This document shows, one piece after another, positions 4,526 through 13,280 of a stretch of 64,000 nt of DNA. Origin of the DNA: Bacteroidota bacterium (GTDB taxonomy: Bacteria > Bacteroidota > Bacteroidia > Chitinophagales > Chitinophagaceae); assembly GCA_030706605.1 (NCBI GenBank), contig JAUZOE010000005.1, positions 62,001 to 126,000 on the forward strand, read 5' to 3'. The first letter of the stretch is position 1, and each line of letters opens with the position of its first letter. Position numbers and translations under genes: made by a program. Below the pieces are notes generated by a model. The model ran no database searches. It was not told the origin of the DNA and saw nothing but the letters and a program-made list of their open reading frames with translations.

Positions 4526-5314
4526 TTATTTTGCCTTAAAGCTATCCAAAAAAACCCTACATTCTTTCACTTTATCAGTATTGATAACATCAATACCCAT
4601 ATTCATTAACGTTTGCCAACATAGTTGTGTATCAGGTGCACCCCATAGCCTCATTTTTTTACCCTCTGCATGGGCTTCATGTATAACGTTTAATATCAGT
4701 AAACTATCTTCTACAGGTAATTTATTAATGCCACGCCATTTTGAATAAGTTTCAAAATTATCGCTTATCATAACAATCTTTTTAAGATCTGCTGGCGCAT
4801 ATTTTTTGCCGGGTAAACCATCGAACATAATATACGATGGAAAGGAATGAAACATGTTATCTGCCGGTCTTTCACCACTAATAAAAACCTGTACAGCTTT
4901 TGGATTTAGTTTCCTGTTAAAAGCATAAGGATGTTGTTGTAATAAATGCATCAGCAGCTTTAATACGGTGTCTTGATTTTCTTTAATATCTATCATAAGA
5001 TAAAAAGTATGAACACTATGCCCTTGGGTTTTGTGGCTGTTGTAAAGCTTTATAATAGGTTCAAGATACATCGCGGAGAGTGTATGTGATGGCTTAATAT
5101 CTTTTTTATTATGTGACACCATTAAATTTCCGTTTACTGCATATACATCTGCTTCAATTACGCCTGCATTATTATTATAAGCATCCCAAAAAGGTAAAGC
5201 ATGTGTATAATCATTATGAGAATGGATAATAGGCTGCGCAGTGCCGCACATACTCAATAAAAGAAAGAATAAGCAGTAATATGTACGCAGGTGTCTCTTT
5301 ATGCTCATGTTCAT
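4526..5314 (-). CDS. Secreted PI-PLC-like/glycerophosphodiester phosphodiesterase-family protein
   Basis: Predicted exported phosphodiesterase of the PLC-like TIM-barrel superfamily. After a signal peptide ending at about CGTAQ the protein shows IIHSHNDYTHALPFWDAY, then EADVYAVNG and MVSHNKKDI; the His/Asn and Glu/Asp pairs match the metal and catalytic residues of this superfamily. The C-terminal INTDKVKE matches the family's closing 'NTD' strand. The reading frame opens further upstream (5395), but the ATG at 5314, or the one at 5308, is chosen because the signal peptide follows directly. Substrate (glycerophosphodiester or inositol lipid) is not determined. Confidence 0.78.
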   Translation of the reverse strand: MNMSIKRHLRTYYCLFFLLLSMCGTAQPIIHSHNDYTHALPFWDAYNNNAGVIEADVYAVNGNLMVSHNKKDIKPSHTLSAMYLEPIIKLYNSHKTQGHSVHTFYLMIDIKENQDTVLKLLMHLLQQHPYAFNRKLNPKAVQVFISGERPADNMFHSFPSYIMFDGLPGKKYAPADLKKIVMISDNFETYSKWRGINKLPVEDSLLILNVIHEAHAEGKKMRLWGAPDTQLCWQTLMNMGIDVINTDKVKECRVFLDSFKAK

Positions 5315-5519: not shown

Positions 5520-8006
5520 TTATCCATTATCAACAGGAGGATTCAAATTATCATCCGGTTTTCCCTTATCTTTTTTGAATTCGAGCTTGCCAAATTTCCA
5601 GGTGAAATTAATTCCTATTGAACGGAAAGGGATGGTACGTGTTTGATCCATTGTAAAACCAGACCCAAAAACTTTTGTTTTCATTACAAGATTTTTATGA
5701 AATGGATTGGATGCTGTAAGTGCAAGGCTCCCTTTTTTATTCCAGAATTGTTTCCGTATTGCAAAGCTGTAAGAAGTAAAAGATGGATAGGTCCCCTGTG
5801 CTTCATGCCTTGCTGAACTGAAATTACCAAAAAATTCTGCCACCAGCGTATTGGAAAACTGATAATCTGCATTGAGGTTAAAGTAGTAATTAAAACTGTT
5901 GTAATTATATCCTTTATCTATCGTGTTAATAGTATGCCTTTCATAAAAAAACAAGTTAGTTCTCATATCCAACTTAGAAAAAAACTTTGCTGATGTAAAG
6001 AAATTTAGTCCGTAATTATTTTCTCTTCCAATATTTTGATTCGTACTTAAAGCTACATCTGTGTAGGTGGTGTCGCCCACCTGTAAAGAAGGATAATACA
6101 CGATGTATGGTTGAATATCATGATCATTTACACGATAAAAGAGGTTGACCATAAAGAAACCGACTTTATCAATATCCACGCTGTAACCCAATTCATATCT
6201 TCTGCCTATTTCCGGGGTCAGATTTGGATTCCCTGTTGAAAGATTTTTGGGATCGCTTGTATTAATAAAAGGATTTAAATCCCTGTAATTGGGTCTTTGA
6301 ATCCTTTTAGTATAGCTCAGTTTTAATTGTGAGTATTCAGTCAACTTTTTTGAAAAAAAGATGGAGGGTACAAAAGTATTATATCCGGGAATTTTGGCCT
6401 GGTTTTGTGCATCTGAAAAATAGGAGTTAATCTCCGTGCGTTCATATCGTTCCCCTATTTTGGCATTAAACCAATTAAATACTGGAAAAGTCATTTCCGC
6501 ATACAGTGCATATACTTTTTGATGGTAATCCAGGATGTTGGACAAATAATTATCCTTTATGTATCCACCAAGACCATTTAGTTTCGAAACATCAGAATTA
6601 CCGGCAATATCATTAAAGCTAAGTTTGCTGCCTACTCCTAAAAGAAAATCCTTTTTAAGCGGTTGAGTATAATCTAATCGTATTTGTGTTTCTTTTTCGG
6701 TACCGGGGTTTTTGCCCTTCGTGCTGTAAAAGAGTGAATCCTTTGGCATAGCATACTGGTAATTATTATCAATTACGCTGCGGTGGCCGGAACTAGTATT
6801 GACAGACAAATCCAATTCCTGGCCATCTTTTTTAAATGTTTTTTTATAATCAAGGCTTGCATCCACACTGTGAAAATTAAAAGTATGGTCTGAATTGATA
6901 GAGCTTTCAATATCAGAAAGAATGGCCCCATTGATGTCTTTCGTATTTTGTAACTGGTTATTTAAACCTGAACTTTTATGACCGAAATTATTAAATGAAA
7001 GTGCTCCGGTTATACCATTGTGATCATTTATATCATAATCAAAGCCTAGGCCCGTTTGGTAACCACTTCTCTGGTCATTTCCGGAACTTGCCTGTTGCAA
7101 TAAAACAGTGGTGTTTGCGGAGGTGTCGTTGGTAAGCCGGTCGGAAGAAGAAAGAGATTGTGCTTTCAATCGGGCATTCCCACTAATATATGCATTCATC
7201 CCAAATTTTCCTTTCCTGGCATTGAAGTTAAAAGAGCCATTCTCAGTTCGGGTCCCCCCGGTGAGTGATAAATTTCCATTAATCCCCCTTGAATTATTTT
7301 TCTTTAAAATAATATTGATGATCCCACCCAGTCCTTGTGCATCATATTTTGCGCCTGGGGTAGTAATTACCTCTACACTTTTTATCTGGCTGGCTGGGAT
7401 GGCTTGCAAAACTTCTGCAATGTCGCTTCCAAAAGCTGCTGAGGGTTTTCCGTTAATTAAAAAGCGTACGCTTGAACTACCTGCTAACTGTACATTTCCG
7501 TCAACATCTACAGAAACCTGTGGTATTTTTTTTAAAATATCAGTAGCGACACCCACCTGCGATGTAAGATCCCTTTCTGCATTAAAGACCAGTTTGTCAA
7601 TTTTGGTTTCCATTACTTTGGGCTGTCCCGAAATGGTAATGGCCTGCATAGTGGTAGCCTTTGGTTCAAGAGAAATATCTTTTATCTCAATAAGAGGATG
7701 TTCTTTGTTAATAGTAATGCTGTATAAAGTGTGAGGTTTATAGCCAATAAATTCTGCCACCAATTTATAAGTTCCGGCGGCTGCAATATTTACGGAAAAG
7801 CGGCCCTTGATATCCGAAATGGTTCCATTTACAGGTTTCTTTACCCCTTCAGGAAAAATAGAGATGGTAGCATATTCGAGGGGATGTTTGGTTAGTGAAT
7901 CTGTTAACCTTCCGGTTATTTTGTAACCGTCTTTTTCATTTTTGGACTTTTGGGCGAAAACTGAAAAACTTAAAAAACATAATAGGGTAAAAAAAGATAG
8001 CTTCAT
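5520..8006 (-). CDS. TonB-type outer-membrane receptor (OMP_b-brl_3 type)
   Basis: An 828-aa outer-membrane protein. After a signal peptide (residues 1-18, FSVFAQ) there is a carboxypeptidase-regulatory-like beta-sandwich at about 28-115, then a TonB plug at about 125-225 (SSSVRFLINGKPS, followed by EVITTPGAKYDAQGLGGIIN), then a beta-barrel to the C-terminus. The barrel carries RDLNPFINTSDP and STGNPNLTPE, typical of the 'outer membrane beta-barrel family protein' group of Bacteroidota. No SusD partner is adjacent, so the ligand is unknown. It is monocistronic and ends at a palindromic terminator. Upstream, TAACTTCG resembles a -7 box with one mismatch. Confidence 0.9.
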   Translation of the reverse strand: MKLSFFTLLCFLSFSVFAQKSKNEKDGYKITGRLTDSLTKHPLEYATISIFPEGVKKPVNGTISDIKGRFSVNIAAAGTYKLVAEFIGYKPHTLYSITINKEHPLIEIKDISLEPKATTMQAITISGQPKVMETKIDKLVFNAERDLTSQVGVATDILKKIPQVSVDVDGNVQLAGSSSVRFLINGKPSAAFGSDIAEVLQAIPASQIKSVEVITTPGAKYDAQGLGGIINIILKKNNSRGINGNLSLTGGTRTENGSFNFNARKGKFGMNAYISGNARLKAQSLSSSDRLTNDTSANTTVLLQQASSGNDQRSGYQTGLGFDYDINDHNGITGALSFNNFGHKSSGLNNQLQNTKDINGAILSDIESSINSDHTFNFHSVDASLDYKKTFKKDGQELDLSVNTSSGHRSVIDNNYQYAMPKDSLFYSTKGKNPGTEKETQIRLDYTQPLKKDFLLGVGSKLSFNDIAGNSDVSKLNGLGGYIKDNYLSNILDYHQKVYALYAEMTFPVFNWFNAKIGERYERTEINSYFSDAQNQAKIPGYNTFVPSIFFSKKLTEYSQLKLSYTKRIQRPNYRDLNPFINTSDPKNLSTGNPNLTPEIGRRYELGYSVDIDKVGFFMVNLFYRVNDHDIQPYIVYYPSLQVGDTTYTDVALSTNQNIGRENNYGLNFFTSAKFFSKLDMRTNLFFYERHTINTIDKGYNYNSFNYYFNLNADYQFSNTLVAEFFGNFSSARHEAQGTYPSFTSYSFAIRKQFWNKKGSLALTASNPFHKNLVMKTKVFGSGFTMDQTRTIPFRSIGINFTWKFGKLEFKKDKGKPDDNLNPPVDNG

Positions 8007-8292: not shown

Positions 8293-8673
8293 TTATTGTT
8301 CTGTCTCTGTCTTTATAGGTGTTAGCAAATTTTCTTCAATTATTTTTTTTAAGATATGTTTGGGATAAGCACCTGGTTGCATCATTGGTTCACCATCGGC
8401 ACCAATAAAAAGCATAGTTGGAATACTTTGTATACCAAATACAGAAGATAGTTCCTGCTCTTTATCTGTATTTACCTTATAAATAGCCAGCCTGCCTTCA
8501 TATTCGTTTGAAAGCTCTTCAAGTATGGGAGCTACCATTTTGCAGGGGCCGCACCAATCAGCATAAAAATCAATGATAGCTGGTAACTCTCCCTTGTATT
8601 TCCAGTCTTTTTCTGTTTCGTAGTTAAATACTTTCTCTTTAAAATCCTGTGTGGTAATTTGTATCGTTGCCAT
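8293..8673 (-). CDS. trxA: Thioredoxin
   Basis: Cytosolic thiol-disulfide reductant. The 126-aa sequence carries the classical WCGPCK active site (Cys41 and Cys44) after FYADW, and the cis-proline loop SIPTMLF. Length is slightly above the usual 105-110 aa because of extra residues at both ends. No signal peptide is present. It is transcribed alone, divergent from the ECF sigma factor gene; no thioredoxin reductase is adjacent. Confidence 0.93.
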   Translation of the reverse strand: MATIQITTQDFKEKVFNYETEKDWKYKGELPAIIDFYADWCGPCKMVAPILEELSNEYEGRLAIYKVNTDKEQELSSVFGIQSIPTMLFIGADGEPMMQPGAYPKHILKKIIEENLLTPIKTETEQ

Positions 8674-8939: not shown

Positions 8940-8968
8940 ATAGGGGTAAAAGGAACATGAGTTGTTAT
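8940..8968 (+). promoter_or_regulatory. Candidate ECF promoter, copy 1
   Basis: ATAGGGGTA at 8940-8948, twelve bases, then GTTGTTAT at 8961-8968. Exactly the same two boxes with the same 12-base spacing occur before the DUF2807 gene at 12463-12491. The position, 60 bases before the sigma gene start, suggests an autoregulated promoter read by the FecI-type sigma factor encoded next to it. The function is inferred; the repeat itself is seen directly. Confidence 0.6.
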
Positions 8969-9027
8969 CATAAAAAAGCAACTTGACAGGAGCAGCATAT
9001 TTTAAACCGGCATATCAATTTATCAGA

Positions 9028-9606
9028 ATGGAGTTGGACGAAGGCAGCATCATACCGTTGCTGGCAAAGCGAAATGAGAAAGCTTTTGAACAGGTTTTTA
9101 AAACTCATTTTAAAAGCCTGCATGCGTATGCCTTCACCATAGTCAGGGATGAGATGGCCGCGGAAGAACTGGTTCAGAATATTTTTTTTAAACTTTGGGA
9201 AAGGCCGGAAAGTTTGTCTATTTCAGGGTCTGTTGCTGCTTATCTCTATAAAGCCGTTCATAATGAAAGCCTCAATCATTTAAAGCATTTAAAAGTGCGC
9301 CAAAAGCATCAATCTCATGTATTGCATCAAATGAAAAACGAAACAGAAAGCGCTGCCAAAAAAATAGCGTTTAAAGAGTTGGAAGGCAAATTGCAGAAGG
9401 CTTTGCAGGAATTGCCCGAACAATGCAGAACTATATTTCAATTGAGCCGGTTTGAAGATTTGAAGTACCGGGAAATAGCTGACAGGCTGAAAATTTCACC
9501 TAAGACCGTAGAGAATCAAATGGGAAAAGCTTTGAAATTATTGCGATTGAAATTAATAGATTTTTTGCCACTTACCATTTTACTATTACTCACATTTAAA
9601 CAATAA
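9028..9606 (+). CDS. FecI-type ECF RNA polymerase sigma-70 factor
   Basis: ECF sigma factor of the Bacteroides-expansion type, about 192 aa. The sigma-2 region shows FEQVFKTHFKSLHAYAFTIV and EELVQNIFFKLWE; the sigma-4 region shows LPEQCRTIFQLSRFEDLKY and an HTH with EIADRLKISPKTVENQMGKA. The frame extends to a TTG at 8983, but the ATG at 9028 starting MELDEG fits the family and leaves the promoter element clear. The anti-sigma FecR gene begins two bases after its stop, so they are co-translated. Activity is expected to be released by a surface signal relayed through FecR. Confidence 0.92.
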   Translation: MELDEGSIIPLLAKRNEKAFEQVFKTHFKSLHAYAFTIVRDEMAAEELVQNIFFKLWERPESLSISGSVAAYLYKAVHNESLNHLKHLKVRQKHQSHVLHQMKNETESAAKKIAFKELEGKLQKALQELPEQCRTIFQLSRFEDLKYREIADRLKISPKTVENQMGKALKLLRLKLIDFLPLTILLLLTFKQ

Positions 9607-9608
9607 GA

Positions 9609-10589
9609 GTGAAAGAAAAATTTGACCATATTGATGATGAGCTCCTGGTGAAATACTTGCTGGATGAAACAACGACGGATGAAAATGCAGCGGTAGAACA
9701 ATGGCTAAGTGTCGATACAACGAACCAAAAATATTTTGATGATTTCAAATTAATATGGGAAGGAAGCAAACAGTTTGCTGCAACAAGCACAGTAGACGAA
9801 GAAGCATCATGGGAAAAATTTCGCGATCGCATTCATACTACTTCAGCAGGAAAGGCAACGGTAAAGCCGATCGGTTCATTCTATTGGCTAAGAATTGCTG
9901 CCATGGTTGTAATAATTGCGGGAGCGGCGCTGCTTGCGTATAAAATTTTTGATAATAAAGAAATTAAAACACTCGCCGTACTGTCTTCAAATAAAGTGAT
10001 TACAGATACATTGCCTGATGAGTCGGTCATTACCTTAAATAAAAACTCAGAACTTTCTTACCCTGAAAAATTTAAAGGAAATACAAGAAAAGTTGCCTTA
10101 AAAGGAGAAGCATTTTTTTCAATACATCCTGATAAATCGAAGCCATTTATTATTACTGTAAATGACATTACTGTAAGAGTGGTGGGTACTTCTTTCAATA
10201 TAAAAAGCAGCAATGGCAATACAGAGATCATTGTAGCAACAGGAATTGTGCAGGTAATAAAAAATAATAAAGAGATTGATTTGCATCCCGATGAAAAGAT
10301 CCTTGTAAAAAAGGATGATAATATTCTGGTAAAAGAAAAAGAAAAGGGTACGCTCTACGATTATTATCGTACCAAACAATTTGAATGCGATAATACACCT
10401 TTATGGAAGTTGGTGGATGTGCTCAACCAGGCATACGGCACTGATATTATTATTGAAGGAAAAGAGCTGCGCAACCTTCCGCTCACTACCACCTTCAACG
10501 ACCAATCTCTCGATACCATTCTGGAGATCATCCGGCAAACCTTTAATATTTCTGTTACCAAAACAGGAAATGAAATTATTTTAAAATAG
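9609..10589 (+). CDS. FecR-family anti-sigma factor, DUF4974 C-terminus
   Basis: Inner-membrane sigma regulator of 326 aa. The N-terminal cytosolic part (about 1-90) holds the sigma-binding region, a single membrane helix lies near residues 95-114 (IAAMVVIIAGAALLAYKIF), and the periplasmic FecR domain follows with LPDESVITLNKNSELSYPE and VRVVGTSFNIKS. The last 70 residues are the DUF4974 fold (NLPLTTTFNDQSLDTILEII). The start is GTG at 9609, two bases after the sigma stop. It presumably contacts the STN domain of the next protein, as FecR contacts FecA. Confidence 0.92.
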   Translation: MKEKFDHIDDELLVKYLLDETTTDENAAVEQWLSVDTTNQKYFDDFKLIWEGSKQFAATSTVDEEASWEKFRDRIHTTSAGKATVKPIGSFYWLRIAAMVVIIAGAALLAYKIFDNKEIKTLAVLSSNKVITDTLPDESVITLNKNSELSYPEKFKGNTRKVALKGEAFFSIHPDKSKPFIITVNDITVRVVGTSFNIKSSNGNTEIIVATGIVQVIKNNKEIDLHPDEKILVKKDDNILVKEKEKGTLYDYYRTKQFECDNTPLWKLVDVLNQAYGTDIIIEGKELRNLPLTTTFNDQSLDTILEIIRQTFNISVTKTGNEIILK

Positions 10590-10613
10590 GAACCAGATTA
10601 TAACACATTAGCT

Positions 10614-12446
10614 ATGATAGTTTTTAAAAGAACCATTGCTGTTTTTATATTGCTCGTGGTCATTAACCTTGAAAGCCAGGCACAAAGTATTTTGGATAAA
10701 AATATTTCTTTGGAAGTAAACAGGCAACGGCTTGATAATGTACTGGAAATAATAAGTAATAAAGGAGATTTCTATTTTTCTTACAATTCAAATATTATAA
10801 AAAGAGACAGCCTGGTTACACTCACCGTTTACAATAAAACAATAAAGAAGGTGCTGGATTTTTTATTCAGCAGTGATTATGAATTTAAAGAAAGCGGCAA
10901 CTACATTATCATACGAAGAGCGCCTTTAAATATTTCGCGTATCACTAACAAAGCCCTGACTGAAGATAAAATTTATACTGTTAGTGGTTATGTACTGGAT
11001 GATGAAACAGGACAAAAACTAAGTGATGCAAGCATTTATGATAAGCACTTACTCGCTTCGGCACTTACTGATGAAAATGGTTATTTTAAAATAAAACTGA
11101 AGAGTAAAAACAAAACGGTAGAGCTTACAGTAAGTAAAGAATTTTACCAGGATACTACCATCGTTATTGAGCCGCGTTACAACCAGCAGTTGACTATCAC
11201 CATTATGCCACAGGAAGAAAGCCAGGCACTCGTTACGGTTAGCCCCAATGATTATTATCTACCCGATTCTTTAAAAGTGAGAGTGGAAGACGATTCCACA
11301 TCGACTGAATATCTCTATGTAAAAAAAGATTCTTCAAAATTGGAGAAAACAGCAATAGGTAATTTTTTGCTTTCATCCAAACAGAAAATTCAAAGCCTTA
11401 ACCTGAAAAAGTTTTTTACTGAGAGGCCTTTCCAGGTTTCTGTTCTTCCGGGCATGAGTACGCATGGCAGGCTAAGCCCGCAAATTGTCAATAATTTTTC
11501 GCTGAACATTTTTGGCGGATATACCGGTGGCCTTAATGGTGTTGAATTTGGTGGCCTTTTCAATCTTGATAAAAGAGATGTCAGATTTTTCCAGGCGGCG
11601 GGCTTGTTTAACCTTACAGGCGGCAATGTAACGGGAGCACAGTTTGCAGGTATTAACAATACTGTCATCAACAATTTAAACGGATGGCAAACGGCGGGAA
11701 TATACAATTATACAAAAGGGAAAGTAAATGGTTGGCAGCTGGCGGGTATTCACAATCATGCAGCCGATACTGCAAGAGGTGTACAAATCGCTGGCATTAG
11801 TAATTATGCGAATAAAAATATGAAGGGTTTACAAATTGCCGGCATCGGAAACTTTAGCCGGAGAAAAATGAATGGGATGCAGGTGGCTGGTATATTTAAC
11901 TATGCCAAAAATTTACACGGTGTGCAAATAGGCCTCATTAATGTTTCGGATACTTCCAGTGGGTATAGCATTGGGTTATTAAACCTGGTTAACAAAGGCT
12001 ACCATAAAATTTCGTTGTATGCAAATGAAACTATGAATGCGAACCTGAATATTAAAACAGGCAATTCAAAATTATACAGTATGCTTATGGGAGGCATTAA
12101 TCTAAGTGATTCTGCAAAAATATATTCATTTGGTTTTGGCCTGGGACATGATTTTATTTTCTCAAACAGATTTTCTTTCTCAACGGAATTATCTTCTCAA
12201 TATTTATACCTTGGTAGCTGGAGCTATACCAATTTGCTGAATAAATTTTCTTTGAACCTCAACGTCCATTTAAATAAAAATTTCGCCCTTTTTGCCGGCC
12301 CGGCCTTTAATGTATATTATAGCAACCAGGCGGGAGGATTTAATGGATTCAATAAAAATATTCCGTCTGCAGGTTATCACCATTTTAATTTTAGTCCTCG
12401 TGTAAATGGATGGATAGGATGGAATGCTGGCATCACTCTTTTCTAA
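10614..12446 (+). CDS. STN plus carboxypeptidase-regulatory plus surface-repeat protein
   Basis: A 610-aa exported protein with an unusual composition. After a signal peptide (to about AQS, residue 25) comes an STN signalling domain (about 28-100), then a carboxypeptidase-regulatory beta-sandwich (about 120-200), a linker, and from about residue 300 a run of roughly ten repeats with consensus GxQxAGIxN, each 18-24 residues. The C-terminal 120 residues alternate hydrophobic strands and resemble a membrane barrel. The repeats resemble the LA_2272-type surface repeats. It occupies the place where a SusC/FecA receptor normally follows FecR, but has no TonB plug, so it is probably the signal sensor rather than a transporter. 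Confidence 0.75.
   Translation: MIVFKRTIAVFILLVVINLESQAQSILDKNISLEVNRQRLDNVLEIISNKGDFYFSYNSNIIKRDSLVTLTVYNKTIKKVLDFLFSSDYEFKESGNYIIIRRAPLNISRITNKALTEDKIYTVSGYVLDDETGQKLSDASIYDKHLLASALTDENGYFKIKLKSKNKTVELTVSKEFYQDTTIVIEPRYNQQLTITIMPQEESQALVTVSPNDYYLPDSLKVRVEDDSTSTEYLYVKKDSSKLEKTAIGNFLLSSKQKIQSLNLKKFFTERPFQVSVLPGMSTHGRLSPQIVNNFSLNIFGGYTGGLNGVEFGGLFNLDKRDVRFFQAAGLFNLTGGNVTGAQFAGINNTVINNLNGWQTAGIYNYTKGKVNGWQLAGIHNHAADTARGVQIAGISNYANKNMKGLQIAGIGNFSRRKMNGMQVAGIFNYAKNLHGVQIGLINVSDTSSGYSIGLLNLVNKGYHKISLYANETMNANLNIKTGNSKLYSMLMGGINLSDSAKIYSFGFGLGHDFIFSNRFSFSTELSSQYLYLGSWSYTNLLNKFSLNLNVHLNKNFALFAGPAFNVYYSNQAGGFNGFNKNIPSAGYHHFNFSPRVNGWIGWNAGITLF
11530..11991 (+). repeat. GxQxAGIxN protein repeats
   Basis: About ten tandem units inside the STN-domain protein. 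Successive cores are GVEFGGLFN, FFQAAGLFN, GAQFAGINN, GWQTAGIYN, GWQLAGIHN, GVQIAGISN, GLQIAGIGN, GMQVAGIFN, GVQIGLIN and GYSIGLLN. The period of about 20 residues with alternating hydrophobic positions suggests a beta-solenoid or repeated hairpins. The DNA of the units has diverged, so this is not a recent expansion. Confidence 0.75.
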
Positions 12447-12462
12447 AAAAAGTCAGGCACGC

Positions 12463-12491
12463 ATAGGGGTATTTCCTTTTCCGGTTGTTAT
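12463..12491 (+). promoter_or_regulatory. Candidate ECF promoter, copy 2
   Basis: ATAGGGGTA at 12463-12471, twelve bases, then GTTGTTAT at 12484-12491, identical in both boxes and in spacing to the element before the sigma gene. It lies about 75 bases before the DUF2807 gene, which suggests that gene is a regulon member transcribed by the same sigma factor. Confidence 0.55.
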
Positions 12492-12566
12492 TAAAATGAA
12501 CAGGGCAAATAGCCTTGTATCCTAAAACCTAATAATAAAATTTAAAAAATTGACAAATTCCCTAAC

Positions 12567-13280
12567 ATGAAAAAGTTAAGTATTCTATTTTTATCAATTG
12601 CGTTAATGGCAGGTTTTACATCTTGCAAAAAAGTGGTAGGCGAAGGCCCCGCAGTTACAGAAACCAGGGGCACTGGTAATTTCACTTCTGTCGCATCTTC
12701 AATCTCCGCCAATGTTTATTACAAGCAGGATCCCGTTTACAAAGTAGAAATAACAGCGCAGCAAAATATTCTCAATGTAATTGAAACCAATATAGTTGGC
12801 AATGAACTTTTAATCAAATTCAGGAATGGTGTGCGGGTAAAGTCTCACGAAAACATAGTGGTGAATGTAAGTTCTCCAATGATAAATGGTTTGCGATTGA
12901 GTGGTTCTGGAAATTTGATAGCTTCTGATTCCATAAGTTCAGGTAGTATGAGCCTTACTTTAAGTGGCTCGGGAAATATAAATCTGCACAGTTTAGTGGC
13001 AACATCTCTTGATGCTAACATAAGCGGTTCAGGGAATATAACAATTTCAAATGGCTCACTTAATACCGGTAGTTTCAGGATTAGCGGAAGTGGAAATATA
13101 GATGCTATGAATGTGCCTGCATCTTCTATAACCACTACCACGAGTGGCTCCGGGGAAATGCGTGTCAATGCTTCTCAAAATCTGGATGTTACTATTTCAG
13201 GAAGTGGTTCCGTTTATTATAAAGGCACACCCGGAGTTAATACCCATATTTCGGGTTCCGGGAAAGTAATGCATCAGTAA
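12567..13280 (+). CDS. Head GIN domain (DUF2807) lipoprotein
   Basis: A 237-aa lipoprotein: the lipobox is FTSC with Cys20, after a short hydrophobic signal. The rest is a DUF2807 beta-helix-like domain with repeated GSGN turns (LSGSGN, ISGSGN and variants) roughly every 18-22 residues. Members are envelope proteins of unknown function, often next to sensory or stress regulators. Its own promoter carries the same bipartite element as the sigma gene, so it is probably an output of the sigma/FecR circuit. Confidence 0.85.
   Translation: MKKLSILFLSIALMAGFTSCKKVVGEGPAVTETRGTGNFTSVASSISANVYYKQDPVYKVEITAQQNILNVIETNIVGNELLIKFRNGVRVKSHENIVVNVSSPMINGLRLSGSGNLIASDSISSGSMSLTLSGSGNINLHSLVATSLDANISGSGNITISNGSLNTGSFRISGSGNIDAMNVPASSITTTTSGSGEMRVNASQNLDVTISGSGSVYYKGTPGVNTHISGSGKVMHQ

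Follow-up and report, generated by a model that had tools for sequence, protein, structure and literature searches.

A two-box element is very probably the promoter through which an extracytoplasmic function sigma factor of the Chitinophagaceae drives its own gene and a DUF2807 surface-protein gene

Which sequence does an extracytoplasmic function (ECF) sigma factor of the Bacteroidota recognise, and which genes lie under its control? This phylum carries many ECF sigma factors, but promoters are known for few of them. Predicting promoters under ECF control was described as challenging in a comparative study of 2013 (PMC3878776), and according to a map of transcription starts published in 2020, no motif was known for any ECF sigma factor of Bacteroides thetaiotaomicron (PMC7366714). 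The question is raised by a locus in 64,000 nucleotides of a Chitinophagaceae genome (assembly GCA_030706605.1, contig JAUZOE010000005.1, positions 62,001 to 126,000; hereafter the window), where a two-box element stands ahead of an ECF sigma factor gene (8983-9606) and again ahead of a DUF2807 gene; between them lie genes for a FecR-type anti-sigma factor and for a protein with a putative STN domain, the probable signal transducer. An earlier inspection of the letters alone (the sequence-only reading) had proposed that the element is the promoter of this FecI-type sigma factor, giving autoregulation and a defined output gene. Our comparison across genomes supports that proposal: we consider it very probable that the element is recognised by the sigma factor of 8983-9606 and drives both the sigma gene and the DUF2807 surface-protein gene. 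This reading rests on five features established by comparison: the element's conservation, its spacing, its specificity to one sigma group, its co-occurrence with the sigma ortholog and the nature of the genes it precedes.

The element ATAGGGGTA-N12-GTTGTTAT has exactly two copies in the window, at 8940-8968 and 12463-12491, both on the + strand, and a 29-base pattern search of the whole window found no further copy at three mismatches or fewer. One hundred shuffled windows gave a mean of 0.24 matches at this threshold, with two or more matches in only one of them. Exact searching also confirmed that 17 identical bases recur at the same 12-base spacing and that both copies are intergenic, site 1 lying between a thioredoxin gene (8293-8673, - strand) and the sigma gene, and site 2 between the STN gene, which ends at 12446, and the DUF2807 gene, which starts at 12567. 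At site 1, the -35-like box TAGGGGTA (8941-8948) falls in strongly conserved columns of the position matrix, the 12-base spacer (8949-8960) is fixed in length and little conserved in sequence, and the -10-like box GTTGTTATC (8961-8969) is recovered by pattern search and by matrix. At site 2, pattern search places the -35-like box TAGGGGTA at 12464-12471, followed by a spacer at 12472-12483 and the -10-like box GTTGTTATT at 12484-12492, the latter again found by the matrix also. The two spacers share 0 of 12 positions, which agrees with the earlier view that this is no simple recent duplication.

The same pair of sites stands out in the genome as a whole (4.27 megabases). The pattern AGGGGTA-N10..14-GTTGT occurs there three times, with a 12-base spacer only at the two window sites and a 14-base spacer at the third. 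TAGGGGTA-N12-GTTGTY has two exact matches, the window sites, none with one mismatch and 27 with two; these 27 look like background because a reversed-pattern control gave 96 sites at two mismatches or fewer. With a matrix derived from 121 sites in the other loci, the window's own genome being excluded, the window sites score 32.2 and 31.5 bits, against 7.6 bits for the next-best position in the window and 16.2 bits for the best position in 30 resampled windows. Given the usual geometry of ECF promoters, with transcription beginning 8-12 bases after GTTGTY, the start from site 1 is predicted at about 8974-8978, 5-9 bases before the TTG codon at 8983, and that from site 2 at about 12497-12501, about 66-70 bases before the DUF2807 ATG. 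A nine-codon frame opening with ATG (12496-12525) was seen by eye directly after site 2, at the predicted transcript start and upstream of the DUF2807 gene.

Conservation was assessed at 80 loci, the best of at least 545 confirmed relatives found in one scan of named genomes with the window sigma factor, with genes taken from simple open reading frame (ORF) calls. Within 200 bp upstream of the sigma gene, TAGGGGTA-N12-GTTGTY is present exactly in 30 loci, at one mismatch or fewer in 41 and at two or fewer in 57, while the reversed motif is found in none of the 80 at two mismatches or fewer and 200 letter-permuted motifs averaged 0, 0.015 and 0.38 loci at zero, up to one and up to two mismatches. 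Exact copies are absent at every other spacer length from 6 to 19, bar one locus at spacer 15, apparently L063, where GTTGTTGTT lets the box slide. In 21 of the remaining 23 loci, a site at two mismatches or fewer lies further upstream on the sigma gene's strand, mostly ahead of other genes, and 18 of these sites precede an uninterrupted same-strand gene run to the sigma gene; L070 has its site 209 bp upstream with no gene between, the run in L095 is interrupted by one short opposite-strand ORF call, and L111 has its site at 5171, also at two mismatches or fewer. In total, 78 of the 80 loci have a same-strand upstream site at two mismatches or fewer. Among the genera sampled by the 80 are Chitinophaga, Niastella, Pedobacter, Mucilaginibacter, Dyadobacter and Flavobacterium.

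The consensus reads TAGGGGTA, 12 bases, GTTGTC/T, (A/T)TA and an A-rich end, and it is the same before sigma genes (56 sites) as before other genes (65 sites), the box columns being conserved partly by choice since sites were selected at two mismatches or fewer to the motif. The median distance from site to called start codon is 18 nt for sigma genes and 24 nt for other genes. Variants appear to be shared between the sites of a locus. Chitinophaga has GTGTC for GTTGTC at both sites in 6 of 6 loci, and Dyadobacter has TTAGGGTA at the sigma site in 8 of 8 loci, with a second site of the same form in five and none found in three. Across 35 loci (46 pairs), within-locus box likeness was 0.776 against 0.725 when shuffled, a value reached in 0 of 2000 shuffles. 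We also looked for sigma residues covarying with the promoter variants of Dyadobacter, Chitinophaga and Flavobacterium; several candidates emerged, all of which follow phylogeny, and no conclusion was drawn. Separately, in six Dyadobacter loci (L059, L085, L097, L098, L099 and L103, at about 5890-5960) a strong inverted repeat, near GCGCCCGAC...GTCGGGCGC, has its left arm within the spacer of the sigma promoter and a T run after its right arm, which to the eye resembles a terminator-like hairpin overlapping the promoter.

The element is also specific to one sigma group. Sixty regions upstream of other ECF sigma genes were searched at three mismatches or fewer and none contains it, these regions being 361 bases each and hand-chosen among the matches listed in nine genomes of the family, the window's own included. 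Conversely, in 147 genomes of the family, TAGGGGTA-N12-GTTGTYNT occurs exactly at 49 sites in 29 genomes, compared with eight sites in eight genomes for the reversed control. In what appears to be the same set of 147 genomes, a match to the sigma factor at E 1e-40 or better is found in 47, and 80 have no match listed. Of the 29 genomes with the exact motif, 28 have the sigma ortholog (hypergeometric P = 1.7e-16, with kinship ignored), whereas none of the eight reversed-control genomes is among the 47. A search for a general ECF motif common to the paralogs, with dyads of 4+4 bases in the 200 bp upstream of the 60 sigma genes, returned only A/T-rich pairs (top count nine, against six to eight in five shuffled sets) and was abandoned. 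By eye, TAAGGG...GTGT sequences at L185, L194 and L012 look related. Nineteen other genomes of the same genus (G001-G019) show no close sigma ortholog among the matches listed (best E 5.9e-29, in G017); with orthologs present in other genera of the family, this distribution suggests patchy loss or gain.

The genes that follow the other copies are of one kind. Forty of the 57 loci with a sigma-proximal site (counted by a criterion that differs slightly from that of the 200-bp count) have another site no more than 130 bases from an ORF start. Of these second sites, 53 in all, 51 precede genes matching surface or outer-membrane families: 22 stand before a CarboxypepD_reg/TonB-plug-like protein of about 780 residues, 22 before a protein matching the transducer, six directly before a DUF2807 gene and one before another CarboxypepD_reg protein, leaving two before nothing recognised. 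Enrichment upstream of genes, whose absence the sequence-only reading had named as a refutation, is present. Two of the 53, at 11850 in L058 and at 11474 in L091, fall within coding sequence and are probably chance occurrences. The 22 transducer-like targets align only with transducer residues 251-281 to 531-610, its C-terminal half, and three that were scanned contain no Pfam domain. In loci that end with the sigma gene, the first genes are likewise of the surface kind or, in Flavobacterium, DUF6134 or fatty-acid-hydroxylase-like genes. In five Flavobacterium loci (L076, L079, L082, L096 and L112) the promoter precedes genes that match the DUF6134 or the fatty-acid-hydroxylase-like genes of L082 and lead into the sigma gene, which hints at a role in envelope lipids. 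In G084 and G173, three neighbouring genes each have their own copy of the motif. Two boxes at a fixed spacing, upstream of both a sigma gene and its targets and specific to one sigma group, are what is expected of an autoregulated ECF-type promoter, and this is the pattern that we found.

Several observations weigh against this reading. L081 and L083 have no upstream site at two mismatches or fewer, L083 having one at three, and in loci with intervening genes the gap just before the sigma gene reaches 509 bases, which leaves co-transcription there no more than a possibility. A single permuted motif reaches 30 loci at two mismatches or fewer. Inexact matches at spacer 15 also score, in six loci at one mismatch or fewer and 21 at two or fewer, compared with 0-7 loci for each of the spacers from 6 to 19 other than 12 and 15 at the latter threshold. 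Exact sites are missing from 19 of the 47 ortholog genomes, some of which carry near matches, such as G022 (GGGGGTA...CTTGTC) and G028, and G129 has two exact sites, one of them 93 bases from a contig end, with no ortholog among the matches listed. No second site was seen in the stretch examined for 17 of the 57 loci with a sigma-proximal site. Within-locus spacers are also more alike than expected (0.371 against 0.309 when shuffled, reached in 0 of 2000 shuffles over the same 46 pairs from 35 loci); some of the likeness between boxes is thus due to relatedness or composition. Finally, the motif is accompanied about as regularly by the FecR and STN genes as by the sigma gene.

The best-surviving alternative is that the two boxes form the operator of a separate transcription factor controlling both genes rather than a sigma promoter. 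A two-box element of fixed spacing could equally be the site of such a factor, and another constant neighbouring regulator might exist; yet the downstream edge is AT-rich and, like a -10 region, lies close to the start codon at a distance that varies little, no exact copy has a spacing of 10, 11, 13 or 14, and the sigma, FecR and STN genes are consecutive in 72 of the 80 loci. We regard an operator as improbable. Marginally less credible still is a promoter that belongs to the primary sigma factor, or to a different ECF sigma factor of the genome, and is linked only indirectly with the neighbouring sigma gene. The genome holds at least 17 matches to the window sigma protein, and overlapping ECF regulons have been suggested for Flavobacterium (PMC9723704), but the consensus lacks TAnnTTTG, the primary box as reported in PMC7366714, and has GTTGTC-T at that place; the absence of the motif before the 60 paralogs and its near-constant pairing with the ortholog likewise argue against another sigma factor. 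Chance, or recent duplication of one promoter-bearing segment, is already contradicted by the comparative result and is very remote, since the window spacers have no base in common, the element recurs in Chitinophaga, Pedobacter, Mucilaginibacter, Dyadobacter and Flavobacterium loci, and both sites score far above background with a matrix to which this genome did not contribute, even though the somewhat greater likeness of paired spacers would allow an old duplication in some lineages.

The genes that the predicted ECF promoter would serve are themselves recognisable, all on the + strand. The sigma protein contains Sigma70_r2 and Sigma70_r4_2 and matches TIGR02985 (Sig70_bacteroi1) at 178.1 bits against a cut-off of 126.4. 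Its gene probably starts at TTG 8983 and not at the alternative ATG 9028: the 15-codon extension (8983-9027) is open in all 27 sequences picked by hand, which comprise 26 of the 80 loci plus the window, and in 23 its first codon is TTG. Differences by codon position in this extension (2736, 2514 and 3074) show a weak third-position excess, and the TTG start is thus likely, not proven; if correct, it would make the sigma mRNA nearly leaderless. A TATATTTG-like stretch after site 1 had been entertained as a second, primary promoter, and was given up: all 27 sequences keep the 45 bases ahead of the ATG open, and many of them lack the box. The FecR-type gene (9609-10589) encodes an anti-sigma protein with PF04773 (FecR; 60.1 bits) and PF16344 (FecR_C; 48.7 bits), above cut-offs of 24 and 24.4. 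The third product (10614-12446) is probably an outer-membrane-like transducer without a recognised TonB plug. It has an STN match below the cut-off (E 5e-5, 23.5 bits against 28.4), with helices and strands modelled at residues 30-102, then a CarboxypepD_reg/CnaB-like part, followed in the model by a beta-helix and a barrel of about 150 residues (462-610) that aligns with the eight-strand OprF/OmpA barrels; it also matches the LA_2272 repeat and has no Pfam match to Plug or TonB_dep_Rec at E 0.001. The output gene (12567-13280) encodes a DUF2807 protein (head GIN/Toastrack type) with what looks by eye like a lipoprotein-like leader.

Together, these features suggest the following mechanism. 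The promoter would have TAGGGGTA as its -35 box and, 12 bases on, GTTGTY(A/T)TA as its -10 region, with an A-rich stretch after it. Site 1 would drive the sigma gene and presumably also the FecR and transducer genes close behind it, giving positive autoregulation, and site 2 would drive the DUF2807 gene. The outer-membrane STN protein may sense a signal at the cell surface and pass it through its periplasmic STN domain to FecR, which would release or activate the sigma factor. The latter would then turn on its own operon together with an envelope regulon that is very small, since this genome has two recognisable promoters. Comparison underlies the promoter steps; sigma binding, the transcription starts, co-transcription, the signal and the direction of signalling are inferred, the signalling steps from the known FecI/FecR pathway (PMC9249621).

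A broader scheme is possible, and we think it doubtful. It posits an ECF/FecR family spread over several Bacteroidota orders (which we take from the genus names) whose sensor, instead of being a TonB receptor, is composed of STN, CnaB-like, beta-helix and small-barrel parts. The sigma factor, acting by a single strict promoter code, would induce truncated beta-helix/barrel copies of the sensor together with DUF2807 proteins; by competing with the sensor or shielding it, these copies would make a homotypic feedback loop at the surface.

The system resembles FecI-FecR-FecA, the ferric citrate type of E. coli, in that an ECF sigma factor, a FecR/FecR_C anti-sigma factor and a putative STN-domain protein are encoded together. 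It differs in three respects. The sigma gene carries the same element as its targets and so appears to be autoregulated, whereas fecIR is reported not to be (PMC9249621); this would be a difference, with the reservation that non-autoregulation is a trait of the E. coli prototype and not a strict definition. The transducer lacks a Pfam TonB plug or receptor barrel and ends, in the model, in a beta-helix and an eight-strand barrel. The targets are DUF2807, barrel and CarboxypepD_reg/plug proteins, and no iron-transport set was seen among those examined. With other ECF promoters described in Bacteroidota (SM6, SigP and the TGTT or promoter motif 2 of B. thetaiotaomicron), the element shares a short -10-like element. 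TGTT, noted near -10 at two B. thetaiotaomicron promoters, where the motif was not significant, resembles the TGTY found here (PMC12596196), and one ECF/anti-sigma operon is among those with SM6 promoters in Flavobacterium psychrophilum (PMC9723704). In contrast, SM6 is described by a CGT box (PMC9723704), and the SigP motif of Porphyromonas gingivalis has another consensus (PMC4800418). The TAGGGGTA box with its fixed 12-base spacing was not seen in the available parts of the SM6, SigP and TGTT descriptions, EcfO of B. fragilis lying outside this comparison. The sequence-only reading knew of no described consensus of this form, and we likewise found none in the literature, of which the 2021 ECF reclassification was not covered.

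In the Das1/Dma1 systems of B. thetaiotaomicron, one anti-sigma protein reportedly spans both membranes, whereas FecR and the outer-membrane-like protein are separate genes here. Those dual membrane-spanning anti-sigma systems are alike in linking an ECF sigma factor to envelope control (PMC12596196). The output gene invites comparison with the Toastrack/DUF2807 partners of phage-shock systems: the DUF2807 model is now part of the Toastrack domain, for which a link to membrane stress is described (PMC11237479). In those systems Toastrack is argued to act inside the cell and to go with PspA/PspC, while the protein described here has its lipoprotein-like leader and lies beside an ECF/FecR operon.

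If the promoter reading is correct, a strict promoter code is tied by sequence to one sigma group, together with its targets, in cultured relatives such as Flavobacterium, Pedobacter and Chitinophaga. The regulon, the role of DUF2807 surface proteins and a FecR transducer that may be TonB-free would then be open to direct tests, and genetic work in the Bacteroidota might use the promoter as a part. A few further arrangements were seen among the relatives. At about 5768 in L052 and at C2:1165351 in G028, the sigma promoter has a second copy of the promoter at its back, pointing the other way, which in L052 precedes a transducer-like gene. In L144 (G060, C1:1971169), the exact motif precedes a FecR-type gene, the sigma ortholog of that genome lying elsewhere. 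In the window itself, the gene for an 828-residue barrel protein (5520-8006, - strand) was considered as a regulon member and set aside, as its likeness to the relatives' 780-residue target is weak (30% over 100 residues) and the window holds no further motif.

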